Shown: positions 19,587-30,427 of the stretch, piece by piece | Numbering within the stretch: position 1 is the stretch's first letter | Layout of the letters: each line of letters begins with the position of its first letter | NCBI GenBank assembly: GCA_904374795.1 | Contig: CAJFEV010000004.1 | Coordinates: forward strand, 1-38,221 | Source of the DNA: an uncultured Bacilli bacterium | Lineage (GTDB): Bacteria > Bacillota_I > Bacilli_A > RF39 > UBA660 | Length of the DNA stretch: 38,221 bases | Reading direction: 5' to 3' | Program-made: the position numbers and the translations under genes | Notes under the pieces: generated by a model | Databases searched by the model: none | Told to the model about the DNA's origin: nothing | What the model saw: only the letters and a program-made list of their open reading frames with translations

Positions 19587-21635
19587 GTGACTAGTAAGAA
19601 AAAAAGACTGCTAGAAAAGCTCATAAACATTTTTTTAAACATATTGATTTTTATTTTTGGTGTATTTTTACTTATTTCCATTTATAACAATATTCAAATC
19701 AATATTTTAGGAAATGATTATTCAAGCTTTTTTGGCTATTCCATGTTTGAAGTACAAACAGGAAGTATGAAAAATGCGATAAATCCTGGCGATATGATTT
19801 TGGTAAAAAGTAATTCCGAAATACAATTAAATGATATTATTACATTTAAACAAGGTGAAGATTTTGTTACACACCGAGTCATCGAAGTTTATAGTGAGAC
19901 TTATGTAACTAAAGGGGATGCAAATAATACGAAAGATGAGCCGATTACTAAAAATCAAGTCGTAGGAAAAGTAGTAAAAATATTCCCAGGATTTGGAATT
20001 ATTCGCCGAATATTATTTAATCCATTTGTATTAGTAGCTTTAATTATTACTCTATATTTAATAAGTACAATGTTTAGAAGAGGTAAGAATATGAAAATAA
20101 AAGAATTTTTATTAAAAGTGATTAACAAAATAAAAGAAAAATTAGAGACAAGTGAAGTTGTACATAAAGAAGAAAAAGAAATACCTGTACACGAAACAAA
20201 ACCGGAACCTATTATTCTAAAAAATCAATTTTCAGAAGACGTCGCTGTAAAAGAAGTTCAGGTTACAGAGCCAAAAAAAGAAGAAGAATCCTTACTAGCA
20301 AAAGATGCTAAGGAAATACTTGAAAATAGCTCTCCAGAAGATTTAGATAAAACAATTTTCTTTAGAATGGTTTCAGTTGATAAAAGTGATGTGGATTCAG
20401 ATTTTCAAACGGTTTCAACCGAAGAGCAAATAGAAGAGGAGGAAGAAGAACCAGCACCTCCTAAAGCCTCTAAAAAGAATATACAGCCTGATGAAGATAT
20501 TGAACAAGAAGCAAAAATGAAACTAGAATTACTTAATAAAAAAAGAAAAAAATGTAAAAATATTATTGAAAAGATTATGTTGCTAAAGACGGACGAATTA
20601 GAAGAAATTATTAAAGAATTAAATCTTCGTCAAGAATATAAACCAAATGAACCGAGTATTAAAGAATACTTTCTAAAAATTTACATTGATGGAAAATATT
20701 ACAATTTCTGTGGAAATGTGAATGTTGCTTATGATAACCGCAATATGATTAGCAAAATAGAAGAATTAATGGAACAAACAGGAGAATATTTAAAGAAAAA
20801 TTATAAGGGTAAAGATGCAAAATTTGCTGAAAAAGTAGACAAGTTCACAAAAATATTTTCCCTATTACCATTCATAGAAAAAAATGCTACCTCAGAATTA
20901 AGAACGAAAAGAGAAGCCTATAAAAAGAAAATTTATCAAATATTTAAAAAAGAATATTTGAGTGAAGCTGAAGCTACAAAGGTAGCAGCAGAAATTATAA
21001 AAATTCAAAAAACATATACAAGTGCTCGTAAATACTTATTAGAAAAATTAAATACAAATACTTTTAAAATAAAATATATTAAAGTCAAAGATGAAAAAAT
21101 GTATGGAGTTGATCTTGACCACAATATTAATTTCAGTAAAGTATATAGTGACTATATCGTCGATAAGACATATCAAGAAGGAATTGTCGCGGAAGATAAA
21201 GTTTTTGTTTTAGCAAACATGCTTTTGATTGAAATTGCTAACGATATGTTAGAAAGCGATTTTTCAAAAAAATATCTTTTATACATACCAGAGAGTTTAT
21301 ATGAAAAAGAAAACAAGCGAAATCAATTATTTGATCTTTTAAATGATGAATATGTAAAGTATTCTTTACGAATTTTGGTAAAATATAACGAAATTGATGG
21401 AAATAAAACTATAATAAAAAATTTAATGAAAGAAGGATTTCAATTTATCCTTTCTATAGATCATCATGAAGTAGTAAAAGAAAAAGATATAAAATTCATC
21501 TATTTAATGGATAAGATTATTATTAATGAAAAAAAAGAAAGCAGTAAAGTTTTAAAAGCACTTCCAAAAGATTTAAAAGAAAATTGCTTGTTTGATGACA
21601 TTGCAACAAAAATAGCTAAGAAAGGAGAAGAATAA
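19587..21635 (+). CDS. SipW-type signal peptidase fused to a large cytoplasmic domain
   Basis: 682 aa from GTG 19587 (an upstream ATG at 19573 runs into a stop after five codons). Membrane helix about 13-35, then an S26B peptidase domain: QTGSMKNAINPGDMI with nucleophile Ser60 and FVTHRVIEV with His96 in place of the Lys of ordinary signal peptidases, then KGDANNTKDEPI. Second helix about 142-161. Normal SipW ends near 190 aa; here an acidic Glu/Lys/Pro linker (about 185-315) leads to a ~365-residue, mostly helical domain with no recognised motif, predicted cytoplasmic. Its last ~130 residues faintly recall a degenerate EAL-type end (LMKEGFQFILSIDHHE), which is only an impression. It overlaps the AAA+ gene by one base. 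Confidence 0.8.
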   Translation: MTSKKKRLLEKLINIFLNILIFIFGVFLLISIYNNIQINILGNDYSSFFGYSMFEVQTGSMKNAINPGDMILVKSNSEIQLNDIITFKQGEDFVTHRVIEVYSETYVTKGDANNTKDEPITKNQVVGKVVKIFPGFGIIRRILFNPFVLVALIITLYLISTMFRRGKNMKIKEFLLKVINKIKEKLETSEVVHKEEKEIPVHETKPEPIILKNQFSEDVAVKEVQVTEPKKEEESLLAKDAKEILENSSPEDLDKTIFFRMVSVDKSDVDSDFQTVSTEEQIEEEEEEPAPPKASKKNIQPDEDIEQEAKMKLELLNKKRKKCKNIIEKIMLLKTDELEEIIKELNLRQEYKPNEPSIKEYFLKIYIDGKYYNFCGNVNVAYDNRNMISKIEELMEQTGEYLKKNYKGKDAKFAEKVDKFTKIFSLLPFIEKNATSELRTKREAYKKKIYQIFKKEYLSEAEATKVAAEIIKIQKTYTSARKYLLEKLNTNTFKIKYIKVKDEKMYGVDLDHNINFSKVYSDYIVDKTYQEGIVAEDKVFVLANMLLIEIANDMLESDFSKKYLLYIPESLYEKENKRNQLFDLLNDEYVKYSLRILVKYNEIDGNKTIIKNLMKEGFQFILSIDHHEVVKEKDIKFIYLMDKIIINEKKESSKVLKALPKDLKENCLFDDIATKIAKKGEE

Positions 21636-23167
21636 TGAATACCTTTTTACGATTCTTTTATGAATTCATATCCGTTTTCTTTGATGGCTTTTTAATGATT
21701 TTCCGAGGGGTATTTGAAGGAATTATTAAAATGTTCAATGTGGGCGAATATACCAAAGTTATTGATAGTTACAAAGGTCAATTTAATGGCGCTGAATGGC
21801 TCATGGTTGTTGTCGCTGTAATATTTTTACTGGCAGTTCTTGCCTTAATTGGATTATTAGTATTCTTTATAATTAAAAGATTTATTCGCAAAGCCAAAAA
21901 CAATTTAAATAAAGAAGAACTATTAGAAGAAATTGGTTCATTAAATGAACAAGTCAGAAAATTAATGAAAGAAAAAGACGAATTAATGGCCATGAAAGTT
22001 TCACAATTAGGATTAAATCCTAATGAAGAAGAACAAGCAAGCGAAGAAAATAAAGAAGGCGAAGAACCTGAAGAGGCGGGAGATCCAAGTATTCGTTTTC
22101 CAAAACTTGTGGCTATTGACCGTGAAATGCAAAACTTCCATATGAAAACATATGAAAATGGCTTTACCTTAGCGGAATTAACGGATGATTTTAGATGTTT
22201 TGCAGCAAGCCAATTGAAACTTTATTATGATGAAACAATACTAAGACCATTCTTTGCTGGACTTGCTTGTGGTAAATTAATTATTTTACAAGGTATTTCT
22301 GGTACAGGTAAAACCTCTCTAGCGTATGCTTGGGGAAAATTTGTAAGTAATGATTCATGTGTTGCAGCGGTTGAACCTTCTTGGCGTGATAAATCTGACT
22401 TTTTAGGATACTTTAACGAATTTACTAAAAAATTTAATGAAACAAAAGCTTTAGGAGAAATATATCGAGCATCGTTTGATGACGATGTTCATACAATCAT
22501 TTTAGATGAAATGAACTTAGCTCGTGTCGAATATTATTTTGCCGATTTCTTATCTACTCTAGAAATGCCAAATCGTGAGGAATGGATTATTGATTTAGTA
22601 CCAAGTTCATGGCCTAATGATCCAAAGAAAATTGTAAATGGTCGAATTAAGATTCCAGGAAATATTTGGTATATAGGAACAATTAACAATGATGACTCAA
22701 CATTCATGGTAACGGATAAAGTTTATGACCGTGCAATGCCTTTAGACATTAATACTAAAGTAGAGCCATTCAAATGTCGTAGTCAAGAAGCTATTCATAT
22801 CAATGCTAGTTACCTAGATAAATTATTTGCCGATGCTTTAAAACAACATCCGATATCTGATGAAGGCTTAAATGGCGTGAAAGAAATGGATAACTATGTA
22901 ATCGCACATTTTAGAATCGCCTTTGGTAATCGTATTATGAAACAATTAAATACCTTTGTTGCCGTTTATGTTGCATGTGGTGGAACCGAAGTGGCTGCCA
23001 TCGACTACTTTATTGCCAAGAAAATATTAAGAAAATTTGATCAATTAAGTGTCGCATTTATTCGTGATGAAATAGAACCATTTATCTCATATTTAAACAA
23101 AAAATATGGTAAAGGGGTAATGGTAGAATGTATATCTTATCTAGAAAACTTGAAAAAGAGTATTTAG
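21635..23167 (+). CDS. Membrane-anchored McrB-like AAA+ ATPase
   Basis: 510 aa. N-terminal amphipathic segment (1-33), one clear membrane helix (about 55-81), a charged coiled coil (about 90-130), an acidic linker, then the AAA+ module (about 160-510). Walker A GISGTGKTS (220-228), Walker B TIILDEMNLARVEYY (287-301, D291-E292), a sensor-1 strand IWYIGTINNDD and an arginine-finger-like VYDRAMPLDI. LDEMNLARVEYYF and TINxDxST are the signature of the McrB/MoxR branch. McrB itself is soluble with a DNA-binding N-terminus; none is seen here. AAGGAGAAG before the ATG and tight packing show coupling to the peptidase fusion and the DUF2357-like gene. Confidence 0.85.
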   Translation: MNTFLRFFYEFISVFFDGFLMIFRGVFEGIIKMFNVGEYTKVIDSYKGQFNGAEWLMVVVAVIFLLAVLALIGLLVFFIIKRFIRKAKNNLNKEELLEEIGSLNEQVRKLMKEKDELMAMKVSQLGLNPNEEEQASEENKEGEEPEEAGDPSIRFPKLVAIDREMQNFHMKTYENGFTLAELTDDFRCFAASQLKLYYDETILRPFFAGLACGKLIILQGISGTGKTSLAYAWGKFVSNDSCVAAVEPSWRDKSDFLGYFNEFTKKFNETKALGEIYRASFDDDVHTIILDEMNLARVEYYFADFLSTLEMPNREEWIIDLVPSSWPNDPKKIVNGRIKIPGNIWYIGTINNDDSTFMVTDKVYDRAMPLDINTKVEPFKCRSQEAIHINASYLDKLFADALKQHPISDEGLNGVKEMDNYVIAHFRIAFGNRIMKQLNTFVAVYVACGGTEVAAIDYFIAKKILRKFDQLSVAFIRDEIEPFISYLNKKYGKGVMVECISYLENLKKSI

Positions 23168-23182
23168 TAAGGGGTGAAAAAC

Positions 23183-24310
23183 ATGGCTCGTTCATTAAAA
23201 GTAAATAAAGAAATTAAAGATACTCGAACCGACTTTTTAAAAAATTTAGATTCAGAAATGGATTATCGTTCTTTATTTCAAAGCGATCTCCTTGTTTTTG
23301 ACTGGGTTGATGAAATGGAATTTGCCTGTCCCTATATTGATATAATCGTTCGTAATCCAAAATTAACTTTAATTCAAGAAAAAAATGTTGTAAAAGTGGA
23401 AAGAGCAAAAAGAATTAATGTGGATAGTGTAAAAAATCTTGCTAAAAATACTCAATACATTAATAAAGTTAAAGAAGATCGCTCTGTTGAACCCAAAAAG
23501 ATTTTAGAGGTTCGTAATGAAGAAACATTTAATATTTATGAAAATCGATTTCTTTATACACTTATTGATGACATGTCTAGATTTATACGAGATAAAGAGC
23601 AAATTTTAAATCATTTTGAATTAATTGAAAACAAAAGAATGGAGTATGCTGCAACCACTACAGCTGCAGGTGAAAAAATTCACATCGAGCTAGCCATTTC
23701 TTCAGAATCTCTACCAAATCAAAAAATAGATAAAAAATTAGCCGAAGAAATAAAAAAAGTAAAAAAGCGTTTAAAAAGAATCAAAGATTATATTTCTAGT
23801 TGGTATCATAGTCCTATGATGAAGCAATTAGAAAGAGAACACGTAAAACCCATTAAGCCACCTTTAAAGAAAACAAATATTACATTAAAAAATCCAAATT
23901 TTAGAATTGCCGCACGTTTATGGGACTTTATAAGGGCATATGATCTTGAAGAAAAAGAAAACAATCAAAACAATGCCAACTTAAACGATAGCATTGAACT
24001 TTTAAAAGGTTTTCTAGATCATAGCTTTTTTATTGATTATAGTGTATTAAATTCTATGAATACCAAGAAAAGAGTTCAAAAGAAAACTATGACCGAATAT
24101 GCCTTAGTAATTTTAACTGAAGAAGTTCATAGAATTATATCTCTTCTTTTAAGTAGTGAAGTAAAAATTACAGATGATGAATTACTAGCACTTATTGCCA
24201 AAGAGATAAAAGCGGAAAAAAAAGAACGGCTAGTAGGTTCAGATGACGTTAAGAAAAAATTTCAATCTGCCATGGATGAATACTTAGAAAGGATGCAAAA
24301 AAACTTGTAG
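23183..24310 (+). CDS. DUF2357-like protein (McrC-type partner, no nuclease seen)
   Basis: 375 aa from ATG 23183, with AAGGGGTG 6-9 nt upstream (in-frame GTG 23174 lies inside it). The region ILEVRNEETFNIYENRFLYT (107-126) matches the E-x-x-x-x-ENRF core of DUF2357, a domain of McrC-like proteins that work with McrB-type ATPases. The middle (about 195-235) is a basic helix-rich segment with SSWYHSPMM, and NPNFRIAARLWDFI follows. No PD-(D/E)xK nuclease motif (D...ExK) is evident, unlike McrC. Soluble, very basic; probably docks on the AAA+ ring. Confidence 0.65.
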   Translation: MARSLKVNKEIKDTRTDFLKNLDSEMDYRSLFQSDLLVFDWVDEMEFACPYIDIIVRNPKLTLIQEKNVVKVERAKRINVDSVKNLAKNTQYINKVKEDRSVEPKKILEVRNEETFNIYENRFLYTLIDDMSRFIRDKEQILNHFELIENKRMEYAATTTAAGEKIHIELAISSESLPNQKIDKKLAEEIKKVKKRLKRIKDYISSWYHSPMMKQLEREHVKPIKPPLKKTNITLKNPNFRIAARLWDFIRAYDLEEKENNQNNANLNDSIELLKGFLDHSFFIDYSVLNSMNTKKRVQKKTMTEYALVILTEEVHRIISLLLSSEVKITDDELLALIAKEIKAEKKERLVGSDDVKKKFQSAMDEYLERMQKNL

Positions 24311-24311
24311 T

Positions 24312-24878
24312 ATGAAAAAGGAAACAATAAAAAAAATATTAAAAATTATTAAAAAAGTATTAAATATAGTTATTGGAATATTTATTGTCTTATTTTTATT
24401 AGTTGTTTGTTTACAGCGATTCACAGATAATAATCTCTCACTTTTTGGCTTTCGAATGTTTACCGTTTTAACAGGAAGTATGGAGCCAAAGTATAACGTA
24501 GGAGATGTATTATTCTCAAAGTCCATTGATCCAAATGACATAAAAGTTGGTGATGCGATCAGTTACTTAGGAGAAACGGGGGATGTAAAAGACAAAGTTG
24601 TAACTCATGAAGTTATAGAAATTGAAACGAATGAAAATGGCGAGAAGATATTTCATACAAAAGGAATTGCAAACATCATTGAAGATCCAATAATTCATGC
24701 TGATCAAATATATGGTAAGGTAATTCACAAATCCACAATACTATCTTTTATTTCAAAAACTATTAGAACTCCAGTAGGATTAATTGTTTTAATCATCATT
24801 CCAGTCTTTTATATTATTGGTTCAGAAATGTTGACGGGACTATTGTCTCATGAAGAGAAGAGAAGAAATAGAGAGTAG
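24312..24878 (+). CDS. sipW: SipW-type signal peptidase I
   Basis: 188 aa, normal size for S26B enzymes. Helix about 14-34, catalytic Ser56 in VLTGSMEPKYNVGDVLFSK, His99 in VVTHEVIEI, and C-terminal helix about 152-170. The Ser/His pairing is the SipW/ER type that releases TasA- and camelysin-like proteins. It starts one base after the DUF2357-like stop, without a close ribosome site, so translation is probably coupled. It directly precedes a TasA-like gene, its likely substrate. Confidence 0.88.
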   Translation: MKKETIKKILKIIKKVLNIVIGIFIVLFLLVVCLQRFTDNNLSLFGFRMFTVLTGSMEPKYNVGDVLFSKSIDPNDIKVGDAISYLGETGDVKDKVVTHEVIEIETNENGEKIFHTKGIANIIEDPIIHADQIYGKVIHKSTILSFISKTIRTPVGLIVLIIIPVFYIIGSEMLTGLLSHEEKRRNRE

Positions 24879-24887
24879 GGGATACAA

Positions 24888-26102
24888 ATGAAACGCAAAC
24901 ATAAGGTGTATTTAAAATTGAATTTACTATCTTTGTTTTGCATTGGTGTTTCATTCATATCGATAACATTAGCTTGGTTTGCTTATAGCGGATTAAGTAC
25001 AGTCACAACTGAAGTAGATGTTAAAGCATGGAATATTGAATTTATGAAAGATTCTGAAGTAGTTACTAATGAAATAGTGATTGATGTGAATGAAGTTTAT
25101 CCAGGAATGGAGCCTATTGTTGAAAAAGTAAGCATTCATAATCGAGGCGATTCAAACGCTATGCTAAGCTATCAAGTAGTGTCAGCAAGGGTACTAAATA
25201 CAGATTTAGAAAATCAAGAAAATGGCTATTTAGTAGACGTATTATCACATGAATTACCATTTCATATTAATATTAATTTAGAAGACCGCTATATAGAAGC
25301 TCAAGATGGAGTAAGCAACTTTTCTGTATCCATTTCGTGGCCATTAGATTCTTTAAATGACGAAAAGGATAGCAAATGGGGAAATGAAGCATACAAATTC
25401 CAACAAGAAGAACAAGCTAAACAAGCCCAAGACCCAAGTTACACTCCTAAAAAATCGTTAAAAATTGTAATAAGTGTTAAAGCAGAACAATTTATAGATA
25501 CGGAAGAAGCTCCAGATATTAACTACAATGTTGGAGACTTAATTTTGTATGATGTAGTGAATAATCAAAAATGTGAAACTTTAAGTAGCACATGTTTAAA
25601 AAATTATGTTTTGGATACAAATAATACCATTGGAGATTCAACAGTAACATTACTACCAGATTTATATGAAACGTATCCGAGCGGAAACTACAGTAATTAT
25701 AATACTCTTTTAAATGAAACGGCAACTACATGGAAAGGCACAACTCGTGCTCTGACATTAGAAGATATTTTAAAAGTGATTTCAACTGATAATCAATATT
25801 CCTATTTAAAAAGAGATAATTTATCTGATGTAATTATTGGCAATCTAGAATACAAAAATCGGATTTCAACAATAGTTGAGAAAAGTAAAGAATATAATGG
25901 ATTATTTTCATTTTCTAGTGAAAAATTCCCTTATCTATCTTCCAATAAGTGCTATTGGGTAAATACAGAATATAGTGCGGATAAGGCTTATGCATTTCAA
26001 AAACAAGATAATATAACAGCAACGATTTATGGAAACGATAAAAATACGCCTTGCAGTATTGTCCCTGTAATAATTGTTGATAAAGCAAATTTAATGGAAT
26101 AA
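24888..26102 (+). CDS. TasA/CalY-like exported protein, probable SipW substrate
   Basis: 404 aa. Basic start MKRKHKVYLK, hydrophobic stretch about 12-34 (LLSLFCIGVSFISITLAWFA), then TASA-like features: WFAYSGLSTVTTEVDVKAWN, with a beta-sandwich domain (about 40-215) containing EVYPGMEPIVEKVSIHNRGD, the typical late-strand motif of TasA/camelysin folds. A second part (about 220-404) has four cysteines in two pairs (CETLSSTC; CYWV and CSIV) and reads like a carbohydrate- or surface-type domain seen in Firmicute surface proteins. AGGGGAT precedes the ATG. It closes the operon. Confidence 0.7.
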   Translation: MKRKHKVYLKLNLLSLFCIGVSFISITLAWFAYSGLSTVTTEVDVKAWNIEFMKDSEVVTNEIVIDVNEVYPGMEPIVEKVSIHNRGDSNAMLSYQVVSARVLNTDLENQENGYLVDVLSHELPFHININLEDRYIEAQDGVSNFSVSISWPLDSLNDEKDSKWGNEAYKFQQEEQAKQAQDPSYTPKKSLKIVISVKAEQFIDTEEAPDINYNVGDLILYDVVNNQKCETLSSTCLKNYVLDTNNTIGDSTVTLLPDLYETYPSGNYSNYNTLLNETATTWKGTTRALTLEDILKVISTDNQYSYLKRDNLSDVIIGNLEYKNRISTIVEKSKEYNGLFSFSSEKFPYLSSNKCYWVNTEYSADKAYAFQKQDNITATIYGNDKNTPCSIVPVIIVDKANLME

Positions 26103-26139
26103 AAAACAAGTCCAAAATAACAAAATGGGCTTGTTTTTG
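26102..26139 (+). terminator. Terminator of the SipW/McrB-like operon
   Basis: AAAAACAAGTCC (26102-26113) pairs with GGGCTTGTTTTT (26127-26138), 12 bp with one G-U pair and a 13-nt loop. Confidence 0.85.
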
Positions 26140-26445
26140 TTAGTAAAAATTATGGTAAAGATTGTAAGTCTTTAATTATACATGTAAGTTTTTGACTTTG
26201 GAGATCCATCAATATCACATCTTTAGAAGAATACATAATTTTAGTTAAAGAATGGATAGAATTTAAGGTAAGAAAAATAAATATCCTAAAAATAACAATT
26301 AAGACAAGCTTTATTTGTAAGAGTATTATAATTATACAATAAAAATCAAGGGGCGAACGAAATGAGTTCATCTTGACCTTTGATTTTTAAAATGTGTTTT
26401 TTTAGATCTCTACCGATTAGGGTTCACATTAAATTTAATCTGTTT
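26140..26445. other. 306-bp convergent intergenic region
   Basis: Very A/T-rich, between two convergent genes. I see no supported gene. It holds the hairpin at 26341-26388. A minus-strand frame (26150-26371) has an AAAGGT before its ATG, but that site lies inside the hairpin and the product resembles nothing known. Confidence 0.6.
26341..26388 (-). terminator. Terminator of the minus-strand TasA/CalY-like gene
   Basis: AAAAATCAA (26341-26349) pairs with TTGATTTTT (26380-26388); two further G-C pairs form across a bulge and an inner GAAC/GTTC hairpin stacks within. On the minus strand the stem ends in a T run; the plus strand also has A/T flanks, so it may work both ways. Confidence 0.65.
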
Positions 26446-27087
26446 TTAAATATTTTCTGTATCATCTAATTGTTGCTCAAATTGAATAGTTGCTTGAATT
26501 TGTAAAGTGGTGTTATTTATAGCTGCATCTTTTCCAATTTCACTATCAGCAGCATCGTCCATAGTATCATCTACACCATCATACCATTCAAAATAAATTC
26601 GAATAGTAAAAGGTTCAAAAGAATAATCTTCTATATCATTTTGAAAAACTAAAGAGTCACTTAATTGATTGTTTTCTAATGTATTGGCAGTAATTTCATC
26701 ACCTTCATTATAATCGCTATTTAAAATAGCATATTTTGTGATCATTAAATCAGGTATATTTTTATTTAAAACTTCAATATTTACTTGATAAGAAAAAGAT
26801 ACATCTACATTTGTTGGATCAATATTAATATCAAAATATCCCTGAGTAGATGGAGCAACTTTGTTTGTCGCGATATCTTCATTTTCCACTAGAACTGGAG
26901 TAATTTGAATAGAAGAAGAAGACCCGTCTAAAATATCTTTTTCATTAACAAGAATTTGCCAATTTGCAAACAACATATCTAAGTTTCCAGTAGTGCTTGC
27001 AACATACCTGGAGTAAGTATTGCTCATTAAACTTAAGGTTAAAGCTAATGAAATTATGATAAATAAAATTTTACATTTCTTTTTCAT
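26446..27087 (-). CDS. Second TasA/CalY-like exported protein
   Basis: 213 aa from the minus-strand ATG at 27087, 7 nt after AGGAGG; the upstream in-frame GTG at 27093 is too close to that site. Signal segment KKKCKILFIIISLALTLSLM followed by SNTYSRYVASTTG, the (T)YS(R)Y pattern seen at the mature start of SipW-processed proteins in Firmicutes. The rest is an acidic beta-sandwich: ANWQILVNE, GYFDINIDPTNVDVSFSYQV, FTIRIYFEWYDG, TLQIQATIQFEQ. It converges on the SipW operon but has its own promoter and terminator, allowing different expression. Probable fibre or surface-matrix subunit. Confidence 0.7.
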   Translation of the reverse strand: MKKKCKILFIIISLALTLSLMSNTYSRYVASTTGNLDMLFANWQILVNEKDILDGSSSSIQITPVLVENEDIATNKVAPSTQGYFDINIDPTNVDVSFSYQVNIEVLNKNIPDLMITKYAILNSDYNEGDEITANTLENNQLSDSLVFQNDIEDYSFEPFTIRIYFEWYDGVDDTMDDAADSEIGKDAAINNTTLQIQATIQFEQQLDDTENI

Positions 27088-27114
27088 ACTCACTCCTCCT
27101 AGTTTTACACTATT

Positions 27115-27277: not shown

Positions 27278-30200
27278 ATGATAGAGGAAATTAAACAAAA
27301 AATATTATCAGCAGTAGCACCAAGAGATTATCAAAAAGGCATGAATTATGAGGAAAGCTATGTAGATTATATCAATTGCACACATTTTGATAATTCCAAA
27401 AGATTTCAATTTCTTGTAGAATCAGAAAGTAGTTATCAAAAATACATGGTTCAAATTGAAATGGTCGGACAAGACATCAAAAAAACTTTATGTACTTGTT
27501 TGCAATTTCAGCAATACCATAGTTGTAAACACGTTGCAGCTTGTTTAATTATCTATTCAAATAAAATGTTTGCTTTACCTAAAGAAACAATAACCAAAAA
27601 ATCAGTTGCCTTCCTAACAAAATTAAAAAGACAATTTAACCAAGAAAATATAAAAAAAGAAGAAGTATTTTTAGATCCTTATTTATGTTTTGAATCGTCT
27701 TATTATCATGATTACTTAGTCTTAAAAGTAAAAATTGGTCAAGAAAAAAAATATTCTTTATTAGGAAAATTATCTTCCTTTTTAAATGAAATAGGTATGA
27801 ATCGTCCATATACTTTTGGAGCAAATTTTACATTTGATCCCAAAAAGCATTATTTCAGTAAAGAAAGCACTGAATTTATAAATCTATTAGATATGATGCG
27901 TAAGTACTATCGCATAGCAGGAAATTCCATATATCTTGATGATACATTATTTAAGCAAATCATCAAAATCTTTCCTAATAAAATTCATATGGAAAATCCG
28001 GAACGAATCATCCCTGTAAAAAAAGAATTTCCATTGACAACAAAATTATCTAAAATAGCTGATAAATATCGAATAACCATGGAAGAAATAGAACTTGTAA
28101 AACCTTTAACAGAAGATTATGAATATGTTTATTTTAAAAATTGTATCTATCACTTAACAAAAGATCAAAGTTTTTTTCTAAAAGAGTCCCTTCACACAAA
28201 TTTAGAGGAATTATTACTACCCGAAAGTGAATTTACCAGCTTACAAAAAAATGTAATTCGGCTAGTAAAAGACCACATCTTGTTAGATGATTCTGTAAGT
28301 GATCTAGTAATCATAAATAATCCAGATGTAAAATTTTATATAGATATTAATGAAGAAGATATCTTGTGCACTCCAAAATTTATTTATCAAGAGGAAGAAA
28401 TTTCTTATTTTGACAAAAGTGCAACCATTCTAAGAGATATTGACTACGAAAATGAAGTGGTAAGAGTATTAGATAAATATGCCTTTCAAAGTGGAAAAGA
28501 TTGCTTTTATTTAGAAGATTTATCAGATATTTGTGCATTTTTAGAAGAAGGATTAGACGAATTAGCTAATGAGTATCCTGTATTTACTTCAGAAAAAGTA
28601 AAAAATACTAAAATTTTGAAAAAAAGTAATGTTAGCTCTACCTTTAGCATAGGAAAAGATAATATTTTACGTTATGAGTTTGATTTAGGAAACATTCCAA
28701 ATGATGAATTAGACAAGGTTATGGCTTCCTTAAAACAAAAAAAGAAATACTATCGACTTAAAAACGGGGATATTCTTTCCTTAGAAGACCAGGCTTTACA
28801 AGAATTAAGCGCTTTAACAGAAGAACTAGAATTATCTAAAAAAGATATGGATAATGCTACAGGAGAAATTCCAAAATATCGTGCGTTGTATTTAGACTCT
28901 ATAAAAAATTCAAAATACAAAATTATCAAAACCGATTCTTTATTTCGAGAATTTATTCATCAATTTAAAGAATTTCAAAATGTAGAAGTAAAATTTACCA
29001 AAGAAGAGCAAAAAATCCTTAGAGATTATCAACTTCTAGGAGTAAAATGGTTATATATGATTCATAAGTGTGGCTTTGGAGGAATCTTAGCAGATGAAAT
29101 GGGCTTAGGAAAATCCTTACAAACTATTTATTTTATGCGTAAAATTTTACAAGAAGATAAAGATGCAAAATTACTAATTGTTTGTCCCACATCTTTAGTT
29201 TATAACTGGGAAAGTGAGTTTTTAAAATTTGCTCCCGAGATTTCTTATCATGTTTTTGCTGAACAAAAAGAAAGAAGACATGAGACTTTACAAAACTTTG
29301 AAGGCAATGTTTATATCACAAGCTATGGTCTTTTACGAGAAGATTTAGAATTGTATCAAGAAAAGAAATTTAAAATCTTTGTTATTGATGAAGCTCAAAA
29401 TATTAAAAATCCAACAACCGGACTTACCAAAGCAGTAAAAAGTATCAAAGCAGAAACCAAACTGGCTTTGACAGGTACTCCAATTGAAAACTCAATTGTC
29501 GAGTTATGGAGCATTTTTGATTTTATCATGCCAGGATTTTTATCCAATTTAATGAAATTTCAAAAAAAATATAAAGTAAAAGATTTTGATGAAGAAACCA
29601 ATCAACTTTTAGAAAATTTACGGATGCAAGTTAAACCGTTTATTTTACGAAGAAAGAAAAATGAAGTCATTAAAGATTTGCCACCAAAAATTGAAAACAA
29701 TATTTATATTGATTTAAATGAAGAACAAAAGAAAATCTATGCTGCTGAAGTAAAATATGCAAATGATGAAATGACTAAATTAGTTCAAAGTGGGGGATTT
29801 ACGAAGAACAAAATGATGATCTTAAGTTTACTTACCAAACTAAGACAAATATGTATTAGCCCCGAAATAACTTTAAAAGATTATCAAGGCGGAAGTAGTA
29901 AAATTGAAAACTTATTAAAAATCATCAAAGAACAAGTAATGAATGGTCATAAAATCCTTTTGTTCACCAGTTTTAAAACAGCTTTGGAACTGGTCAAAAA
30001 ATCTTTAGATGAAGAAAATATTTCAAATTATACAATTGCTGGAGATGTAAGTGCTCAAAAAAGAAAAATGTTAGTAGATGCCTTTAATAAAGATAATACC
30101 AATGTATTTCTAATCATGTTAAAAAGTGGGGGAACAGGATTAAACTTAACTAGTGCGGATGTAGTCATTCATCTAGATTTATGGTGGAATCCTCAAGCGG

Positions 30201-30427
30201 AAAATCAAGCAACAGATAGAACCCACCGTATCGGTCAAACAAAAACTGTTGAAGTAATCAAATTAATATGCAAAGGAACTATTGAAGAAAAAATCTTGAA
30301 TTTACAACAAAAGAAAAAACTGTTAAGCGATAAAATGATTGAAGAGGGGATGAGTGACTCCGATTACTTAAAAGGCTTAACAGAAAAAGATATTCGCAAT
30401 TTACTTGCTTATGAAAATAAAGAATAA
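27278..30427 (+). CDS. SWIM zinc finger SNF2-family helicase
   Basis: 1049 aa. An N-terminal SWIM finger C72-x-C74 ... C83-x-H85 (LCTCLQFQQYHSCKH) precedes a long middle region of unassigned fold (about 100-580) that fits the bacterial SNF2-associated (DUF3670/SNF2_N-type) spacer. The SNF2 ATPase follows: GGILADEMGLGKSLQT (about 600-616), VCPTSLVYNWESEF, VIDEAQNIKN (about 702-711), ALTGTPIENS, and the helicase C domain with KSGGTGLNLTSADVVIHLD and QATDRTHRIGQT. RapA/HepA-like remodeler of DNA- or RNA polymerase-bound complexes. AAGGAGG precedes the ATG. Monocistronic. Confidence 0.92.
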   Translation: MIEEIKQKILSAVAPRDYQKGMNYEESYVDYINCTHFDNSKRFQFLVESESSYQKYMVQIEMVGQDIKKTLCTCLQFQQYHSCKHVAACLIIYSNKMFALPKETITKKSVAFLTKLKRQFNQENIKKEEVFLDPYLCFESSYYHDYLVLKVKIGQEKKYSLLGKLSSFLNEIGMNRPYTFGANFTFDPKKHYFSKESTEFINLLDMMRKYYRIAGNSIYLDDTLFKQIIKIFPNKIHMENPERIIPVKKEFPLTTKLSKIADKYRITMEEIELVKPLTEDYEYVYFKNCIYHLTKDQSFFLKESLHTNLEELLLPESEFTSLQKNVIRLVKDHILLDDSVSDLVIINNPDVKFYIDINEEDILCTPKFIYQEEEISYFDKSATILRDIDYENEVVRVLDKYAFQSGKDCFYLEDLSDICAFLEEGLDELANEYPVFTSEKVKNTKILKKSNVSSTFSIGKDNILRYEFDLGNIPNDELDKVMASLKQKKKYYRLKNGDILSLEDQALQELSALTEELELSKKDMDNATGEIPKYRALYLDSIKNSKYKIIKTDSLFREFIHQFKEFQNVEVKFTKEEQKILRDYQLLGVKWLYMIHKCGFGGILADEMGLGKSLQTIYFMRKILQEDKDAKLLIVCPTSLVYNWESEFLKFAPEISYHVFAEQKERRHETLQNFEGNVYITSYGLLREDLELYQEKKFKIFVIDEAQNIKNPTTGLTKAVKSIKAETKLALTGTPIENSIVELWSIFDFIMPGFLSNLMKFQKKYKVKDFDEETNQLLENLRMQVKPFILRRKKNEVIKDLPPKIENNIYIDLNEEQKKIYAAEVKYANDEMTKLVQSGGFTKNKMMILSLLTKLRQICISPEITLKDYQGGSSKIENLLKIIKEQVMNGHKILLFTSFKTALELVKKSLDEENISNYTIAGDVSAQKRKMLVDAFNKDNTNVFLIMLKSGGTGLNLTSADVVIHLDLWWNPQAENQATDRTHRIGQTKTVEVIKLICKGTIEEKILNLQQKKKLLSDKMIEEGMSDSDYLKGLTEKDIRNLLAYENKE

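Follow-up and report, generated by a model that had tools for sequence, protein, structure and literature searches.

A conserved operon of an McrB-like GTPase, signal peptidases and SipW-style secreted proteins in an uncultured gut bacterium: a candidate CoCoPALM-type system

What might a GTPase related to those of restriction systems do in an operon shared with two signal peptidases and a secreted protein? The question is raised by a locus in a 38,221-nt contig of an uncultured gut bacterium (the window, by which we mean the whole stretch of DNA analysed). Its AAA+ GTPase domain and its DUF2357 protein resemble components of the McrBC type IV restriction systems of E. coli and T. gammatolerans, where DUF2357 corresponds to the stalk of McrC. 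Signal peptidases, to our knowledge, are usually regarded as stand-alone, with no NTP-driven partner.

Layout of the locus and its secreted proteins

Six open reading frames were confirmed in the window (Table 1). The single tight operon with an adjoining secreted-protein gene that had been claimed in the preliminary description is indeed present: the five genes on the + strand are separated by −1, 6, 1 and 9 bp, and the convergent gene 6 lies 343 bp away. Scans for promoters and terminators yielded nothing beyond what shuffled sequences would give. The module is placed between ParC/YlbD and an SNF2 gene. This SNF2 helicase (window positions 27278-30427) adjoins TasA2 in all same-genus copies of sufficient length and is absent from that position in other genera; among NCBIfam families it comes closest to a pilus expression-regulating Snf2 helicase, at 523 bits with a cut-off of 1100.

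Table 1. Genes of the module, with window coordinates
Gene	Product	Position	Strand	Evidence
1	Peptidase fusion (signal peptidase and degenerate EAL-fold tail)	19587..21635	+	NCBIfam, predicted model
2	Membrane-anchored McrB-like AAA+ GTPase (predicted)	21635..23167	+	PDB match, motifs, transmembrane stretch
3	McrC-like partner, DUF2357 without PD-(D/E)xK nuclease	23174..24310	+	Pfam, model
4	Second SipW-type signal peptidase	24312..24878	+	NCBIfam, active-site alignment
5	TasA1, secreted protein, putative cargo 1	24888..26102	+	SipW-style signal peptide, AWFAYSG
6	TasA2, secreted protein, putative cargo 2, convergent	26446..27093	-	Signal peptide, NTYSRY

Both secreted proteins begin with a hydrophobic stretch and SipW-style motifs, of which AWFAYSG in TasA1 is strongly conserved. 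Of 541 genes close to the GTPase, 141 carry such signals; in the same-genus background the figure is 3 of 115. Neither protein matched TasA, camelysin or a known fibre family in Pfam, NCBIfam or PDB profile searches, and the NCBIfam model of SipW-cognate signals (TIGR04088) gave sub-threshold matches only, in two relatives. The earlier label "TasA-like cargo" is therefore to be taken as "SipW-style secreted protein": it draws on the style of the signal peptide and on the SipW neighbour, no sequence match to TasA having been found. The TapA-SipW-TasA operon of Bacillus subtilis likewise places an ER-type signal peptidase beside secreted proteins with SipW-style signals, although those of the window have no detected sequence kinship to TasA. 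We know of no GTPase, DUF2357 protein or EAL-like fusion in that operon.

The predicted membrane GTPase and its McrC-like partner

McrB was the only match of the GTPase among PDB structures, and a weak one (8e-5). A stronger match (3.5e-40) was obtained to PDC-M26A, a candidate defence family of PADLOC. The Walker A motif is located at residues 220-227, and the sequence GISGTGKTS is identical in 34/34 homologues. The GTPase signature, N351-N-D353 in the window, takes the form NND(D/E)ST in all 34 full-length homologues, with NNDD in 32 and NNDE in L041 and L045; because of these two, the signature is read as NxD and not NxxD. One strong transmembrane stretch spans residues 62-80 of the protein; the residues after it are charged and helix-like, with a putative coiled coil at about 90-120. 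DivIC/FtsB was not among the Pfam matches listed for the N-terminus, and FtsB homology was not detected.

Gene 3 contains DUF2357 (Pfam PF09823, 1.6e-9). Its model (pLDDT 73.5) has a C-terminal half predicted to be all-helical, with long helices at residues 183-211 and 241-327. Foldseek found no significant match for this model; in a second structural search the McrC chains 6ut5_G and 6ut7_G led the list over residues 36-256, with Z-scores of 7.4 and 7.1 that are modest, being below 8, and that agree with Pfam. A profile of the DUF2357 alignment did not find McrC in the PDB by sequence. The nuclease domain PDDEXK_7 was not matched by gene 3 in a Pfam search in which a control McrC (L134) gave both DUF2357 (4e-67) and PDDEXK_7 (9.5e-52). 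No PDDEXK_7 match was found in the window genome, nor was a nuclease match found in any of the McrC-like partners scanned from this clade. The partner is an McrC homologue that has kept DUF2357 and lost the nuclease. A restriction system with a nuclease was rejected: PDDEXK_7 was matched neither in the partner nor in the genome, and the C-terminal half of the partner model is helical. Compared with McrBC, the window system lacks the PD-(D/E)xK nuclease, has a membrane anchor in place of the DNA-binding domain, and carries NxD instead of NxxD.

The preliminary description held that no link between McrB/DUF2357 pairs and SipW had been described. This was wrong, since CoCoPALM was named in 2024 for McrB GTPases that carry the NxD motif, have a membrane/coiled-coil region at the N-terminus and are found beside signal peptidases (Bell et al., 2024, eLife, PMC11090510). 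In the main text of that article CoCoPALM receives a few sentences, with details deferred; the GTPase is described as fused to an FtsB-homologous domain (transmembrane helix and coiled coil), and coiled coils are reported on both the McrB and the McrC homologues. A full-text search, which left most subscription journals and preprints outside its coverage, found no further CoCoPALM paper beyond the article and its preprint. The window shares with CoCoPALM the NxD GTPase, the N-terminal membrane helix, the DUF2357 partner and adjacent signal peptidases, of which the window has two. Its EAL-fold domain, putative secreted cargo and peptidase fusion are additions relative to the published main text, which mentions no EAL domain, adhesin, secreted cargo or peptidase fusion. 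CoCoNuTs belong to the same NxD branch and have coiled coils, and their McrC homologues can be devoid of a nuclease. According to the main text of the same article, however, where the McrC of a CoCoNuT has no active nuclease another one is always present, whereas Pfam and NCBIfam searches identified no nuclease among the window operon genes.

Conservation and patchy distribution of the module

The GTPase was found in 34 loci in one scan of genome contigs. As judged by ORF calling and clustering, the order fusion-GTPase-DUF2357-SipW-TasA1 is kept in almost every locus that is not truncated at a contig end, and TasA2 often adjoins the block on the opposite strand in the 34-locus set. Median gaps within the block are 3-13 bp across 33-37 loci, which extend to other Bacilli and Clostridia; these loci are not independent genomes, as some come from one genus or one genome. 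The flanks vary between genera; order and short gaps persist all the same, so the arrangement is not due to chance. In other genera it extends upstream to secreted proteins of ~180 and ~300 aa, a surface protein of 1000-1200 aa and a third peptidase-like gene. The earlier proposal that the McrB/DUF2357 pair is tied to signal peptidases and secreted proteins as a conserved unit was borne out.

More widely, relatives were detected in 84 of 392 genomes of the phylum. The 58 loci with a membrane-type GTPase include 55 with DUF2357, 52 with a signal peptidase and 54 with a SipW-style secreted protein. The preliminary description had asked whether such pairs usually occur without SipW or together with a nuclease; for this clade the opposite was found, with a signal peptidase in 52 of 58 loci and no nuclease match in the McrC-like partners scanned. 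One branch (L125-L130) combines a GTPase of 600 residues with a peptidase.

No other gene of the block is as well conserved as the GTPase; in G019, for example, it shares 59% identity with that of the window, compared with 32% for DUF2357 and 27% for TasA1. This conservation bears on the idea that the locus is a plain fibre operon of the SipW/TasA type, whose GTPase pair controls only expression or cell-envelope quality without acting directly in export. The peptidase and secreted-protein genes are arranged like sipW-tasA, as such an operon would have them, yet the GTPase is both membrane-bound and the best-conserved member of the block. Some relatives (L056 and L100) have no SipW-type peptidase nearby but retain the GTPase and DUF2357, together with a cytosolic gene upstream and a surface protein. 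We regard a simple fibre operon as highly improbable.

Within the genus, the GTPase is present in 10 of 36 genomes, the window's own included, and those same genomes hold the DUF2357 partner and the stronger matches to TasA1. A few other genomes of the genus yield weak matches only (E 1e-5 to 7e-4). The flanking gene YlbD can be found in most genus genomes that lack the module. In G013, whose YlbD is 87% identical, the order is ParC-YlbD-w18780-u142 followed by other genes, so that the site is empty; the ParC-YlbD site of G019 is empty as well, and its module is located on a different contig. The module is accessory, with a patchy distribution in the genus and empty sites in close relatives. 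In one locus (L029; G033 contig 52), a GTPase 94% identical to that of the window has an in-frame TGA, from either a sequencing fault or a decaying copy.

Patchiness and empty sites would also be expected of a membrane-acting defence system, that is, an McrBC-derived sensor of phage infection with a membrane peptidase as its output instead of a nuclease. The PDC-M26A match of the GTPase domain and its place in the NxD branch, which according to the main text of Bell et al. (PMC11090510) includes the CoCoNuT defence systems, are consistent with that idea. Set against them, the partner matches neither the PDC-M26B model nor a nuclease, the neighbours are secreted proteins and peptidases with no recognised defence genes, and the window site runs from ParC/YlbD to SNF2. 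Searches of phages, plasmids and viral contigs also found no full-length copy. Defence appears improbable to us.

Peptidases, the EAL-fold tail and a possible mechanism

Genes 1 and 4 encode ER/SipW-type signal peptidases (NCBIfam TIGR02228, 6e-20 and 4e-26). In the fused peptidase, Ser60, His96, Asp111 and Asp117 are intact in 29/29 sequences. For the second peptidase, all 31 sequences have Ser, His and one Asp; the Asp of its GD motif (GDxN) is lost in 30 of these and replaced by Ile or Leu in 27, with Ile in the window, and this loss may affect its activity. In the third signal-peptidase-like gene, which other genera carry on the upstream side of the block (L033:5373-5897, L040:7265-7837, L048:7380-7919 and others), the catalytic Ser is missing from all 11 copies. 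Judged by these residues, the peptidases would form a graded set: competent (fused), altered (second) and dead (third, other genera).

The fusion consists of a signal peptidase (residues 1-165), a disordered or helical linker and an EAL-fold domain at about residues 489-671. In the model of its cytosolic part (pLDDT 77.5, pTM 0.73), the tail resembles EAL domains: they make up most of the leading Foldseek rows (probability 1.00, with a best E of only about 1e-3) and all of the best 50 rows in VIA (Z 11.2-13.5, 159-186 residues, rmsd about 3-5), where the EAL domain of LapD is the top row at Z 13.5, tied with others. The EAL and DDFG motifs, each present in 9 of 10 true EAL domains, occur in none of the 31 tails, and an EGVE-like motif occurs in one. 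This kinship was not seen by sequence, hhalign being negative and Pfam giving no match, and the assignment rests on the predicted model together with gene position. On that basis the tail is a degenerate EAL-fold domain with its catalytic motifs missing. The preliminary description had noted a "cytoplasmic tail"; the cytosolic part does exist, although according to the model it is not a mere tail but a folded EAL-like domain that had been missed.

Gene position points the same way. Stand-alone tails hold the place of the fused tail in Clostridia and others, and in L153 a degenerate GGDEF-EAL gene is found there, directly upstream of AAA-DUF2357. Four clusters (L109, L114, L116 and L118) contain true EAL genes, matched by Pfam at 3e-66 to 2e-71. 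Among 18 distant genomes of the class, 11 place an EAL gene no more than 6 kb from the GTPase, against an expectation of 0.70 (P 2e-12, ignoring shared ancestry). A further true EAL beside a GTPase (L023) was left out of this support, since that GTPase lacks its N-terminal half, possibly through an assembly fault. In a quick tree of the GTPase, the fused tails form one clade (support 100) whose sole other member, L049, has its gene cut by a contig end. The sister group carries stand-alone tails, and the outer lineages are EAL-associated or have no assigned context. The tree places the fusion of tail and peptidase as a single, apparently late, event.

Searches of the window genome (~89% complete) revealed no intact EAL gene and a single, degenerate GGDEF; c-di-GMP is therefore an unlikely input in this lineage. 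That GGDEF match (L156) has a solute-binding-like extracellular part and an NGNEF motif.

Among degenerate EAL proteins, FimX regulates the machinery of type IV pili and LapD controls the adhesin protease LapG. The tail shares with both an EAL fold without catalytic motifs and adjoins surface-protein genes; it differs in being fused to a signal peptidase, in having no recognised GGDEF, and in a host with no detected intact EAL gene. By analogy to LapD-LapG, the GTPase and EAL-like domain could time peptidase cutting as an inside-out switch, through which surface proteins would be released or activated. The top VIA rank of the LapD EAL, tied though it is, the fusion of the EAL-like domain to the peptidase itself and the true EAL enzymes in clusters of distant relatives all fit such a switch, and the altered second and dead third peptidases resemble regulators. 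LapD, however, works via a periplasmic domain that is absent from the window system, and the c-di-GMP signal is an improbable one here. We consider the switch unlikely.

We give about even credence to a CoCoPALM-type system, in which a peptidase docked on a membrane-anchored GTPase ring would mature or assemble secreted proteins of the cell surface. The McrB-like NxD GTPase would be anchored by its N-terminal helix and would probably form a hexameric ring, as McrB does, with the nuclease-less McrC homologue as its activator. The EAL-fold domain could dock the competent peptidase onto this ring. The competent and the altered ER-type peptidase would act on the two secreted proteins as putative substrates, and surface proteins would be matured and assembled locally into a fibre or adhesin, gated or driven by GTP hydrolysis at the membrane, in a manner comparable to the action of the degenerate EAL protein FimX on type IV pili. 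As in the preliminary description, we infer an AAA+-powered export or assembly machine. Counted against this explanation are an EAL kinship unseen by sequence profiles, the lack of a fibre-family match in the searches above and of detected FtsB homology, the kinship of the GTPase domain to PDC-M26A, and a patchiness like that of defence genes. A tentative extension, less likely than not, is a whole class of surface-assembly machines: a GTPase ring of restriction type would have moved to the membrane and become linked to signal peptidases via EAL-fold domains, with readout by c-di-GMP enzymes as the ancestral state and the dead-EAL fusion as a version hard-wired in this lineage.

If the CoCoPALM-type mechanism is correct, the maturation of surface proteins would be powered or gated in a novel manner, by an McrB-type ring together with an EAL-fold dock and the activator of the ring, and the system would be an example of a restriction-system motor reused at the cell surface. 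CoCoPALM, so far a mere name, would gain testable parts: a contact between tail and ring, two peptidases and two substrates. The association of NxD McrB GTPases with signal peptidases was already known under that name (PMC11090510, main text). New here are the modelled EAL-fold tail, the proximity of EAL genes to the GTPase, the single late fusion suggested by the tree, the nuclease-less McrC homologue, the active-site states of the peptidases and the accessory nature of the module.

In L119-L124, two GTPases flank one DUF2357 gene, and surface-like proteins of 700-1600 aa often follow. A surface protein of 1842 residues (L153:7471-12999), built of numerous beta-like repeat domains and ending in a membrane helix, is encoded directly upstream of EAL-GTPase-DUF2357. 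In two loci with no nearby SipW-type peptidase (L056:12612-13913 and L024:217-1485), DUF2357 is followed by a membrane protein with repeated calcium-binding-like motifs of the DxDGxxDxN type.
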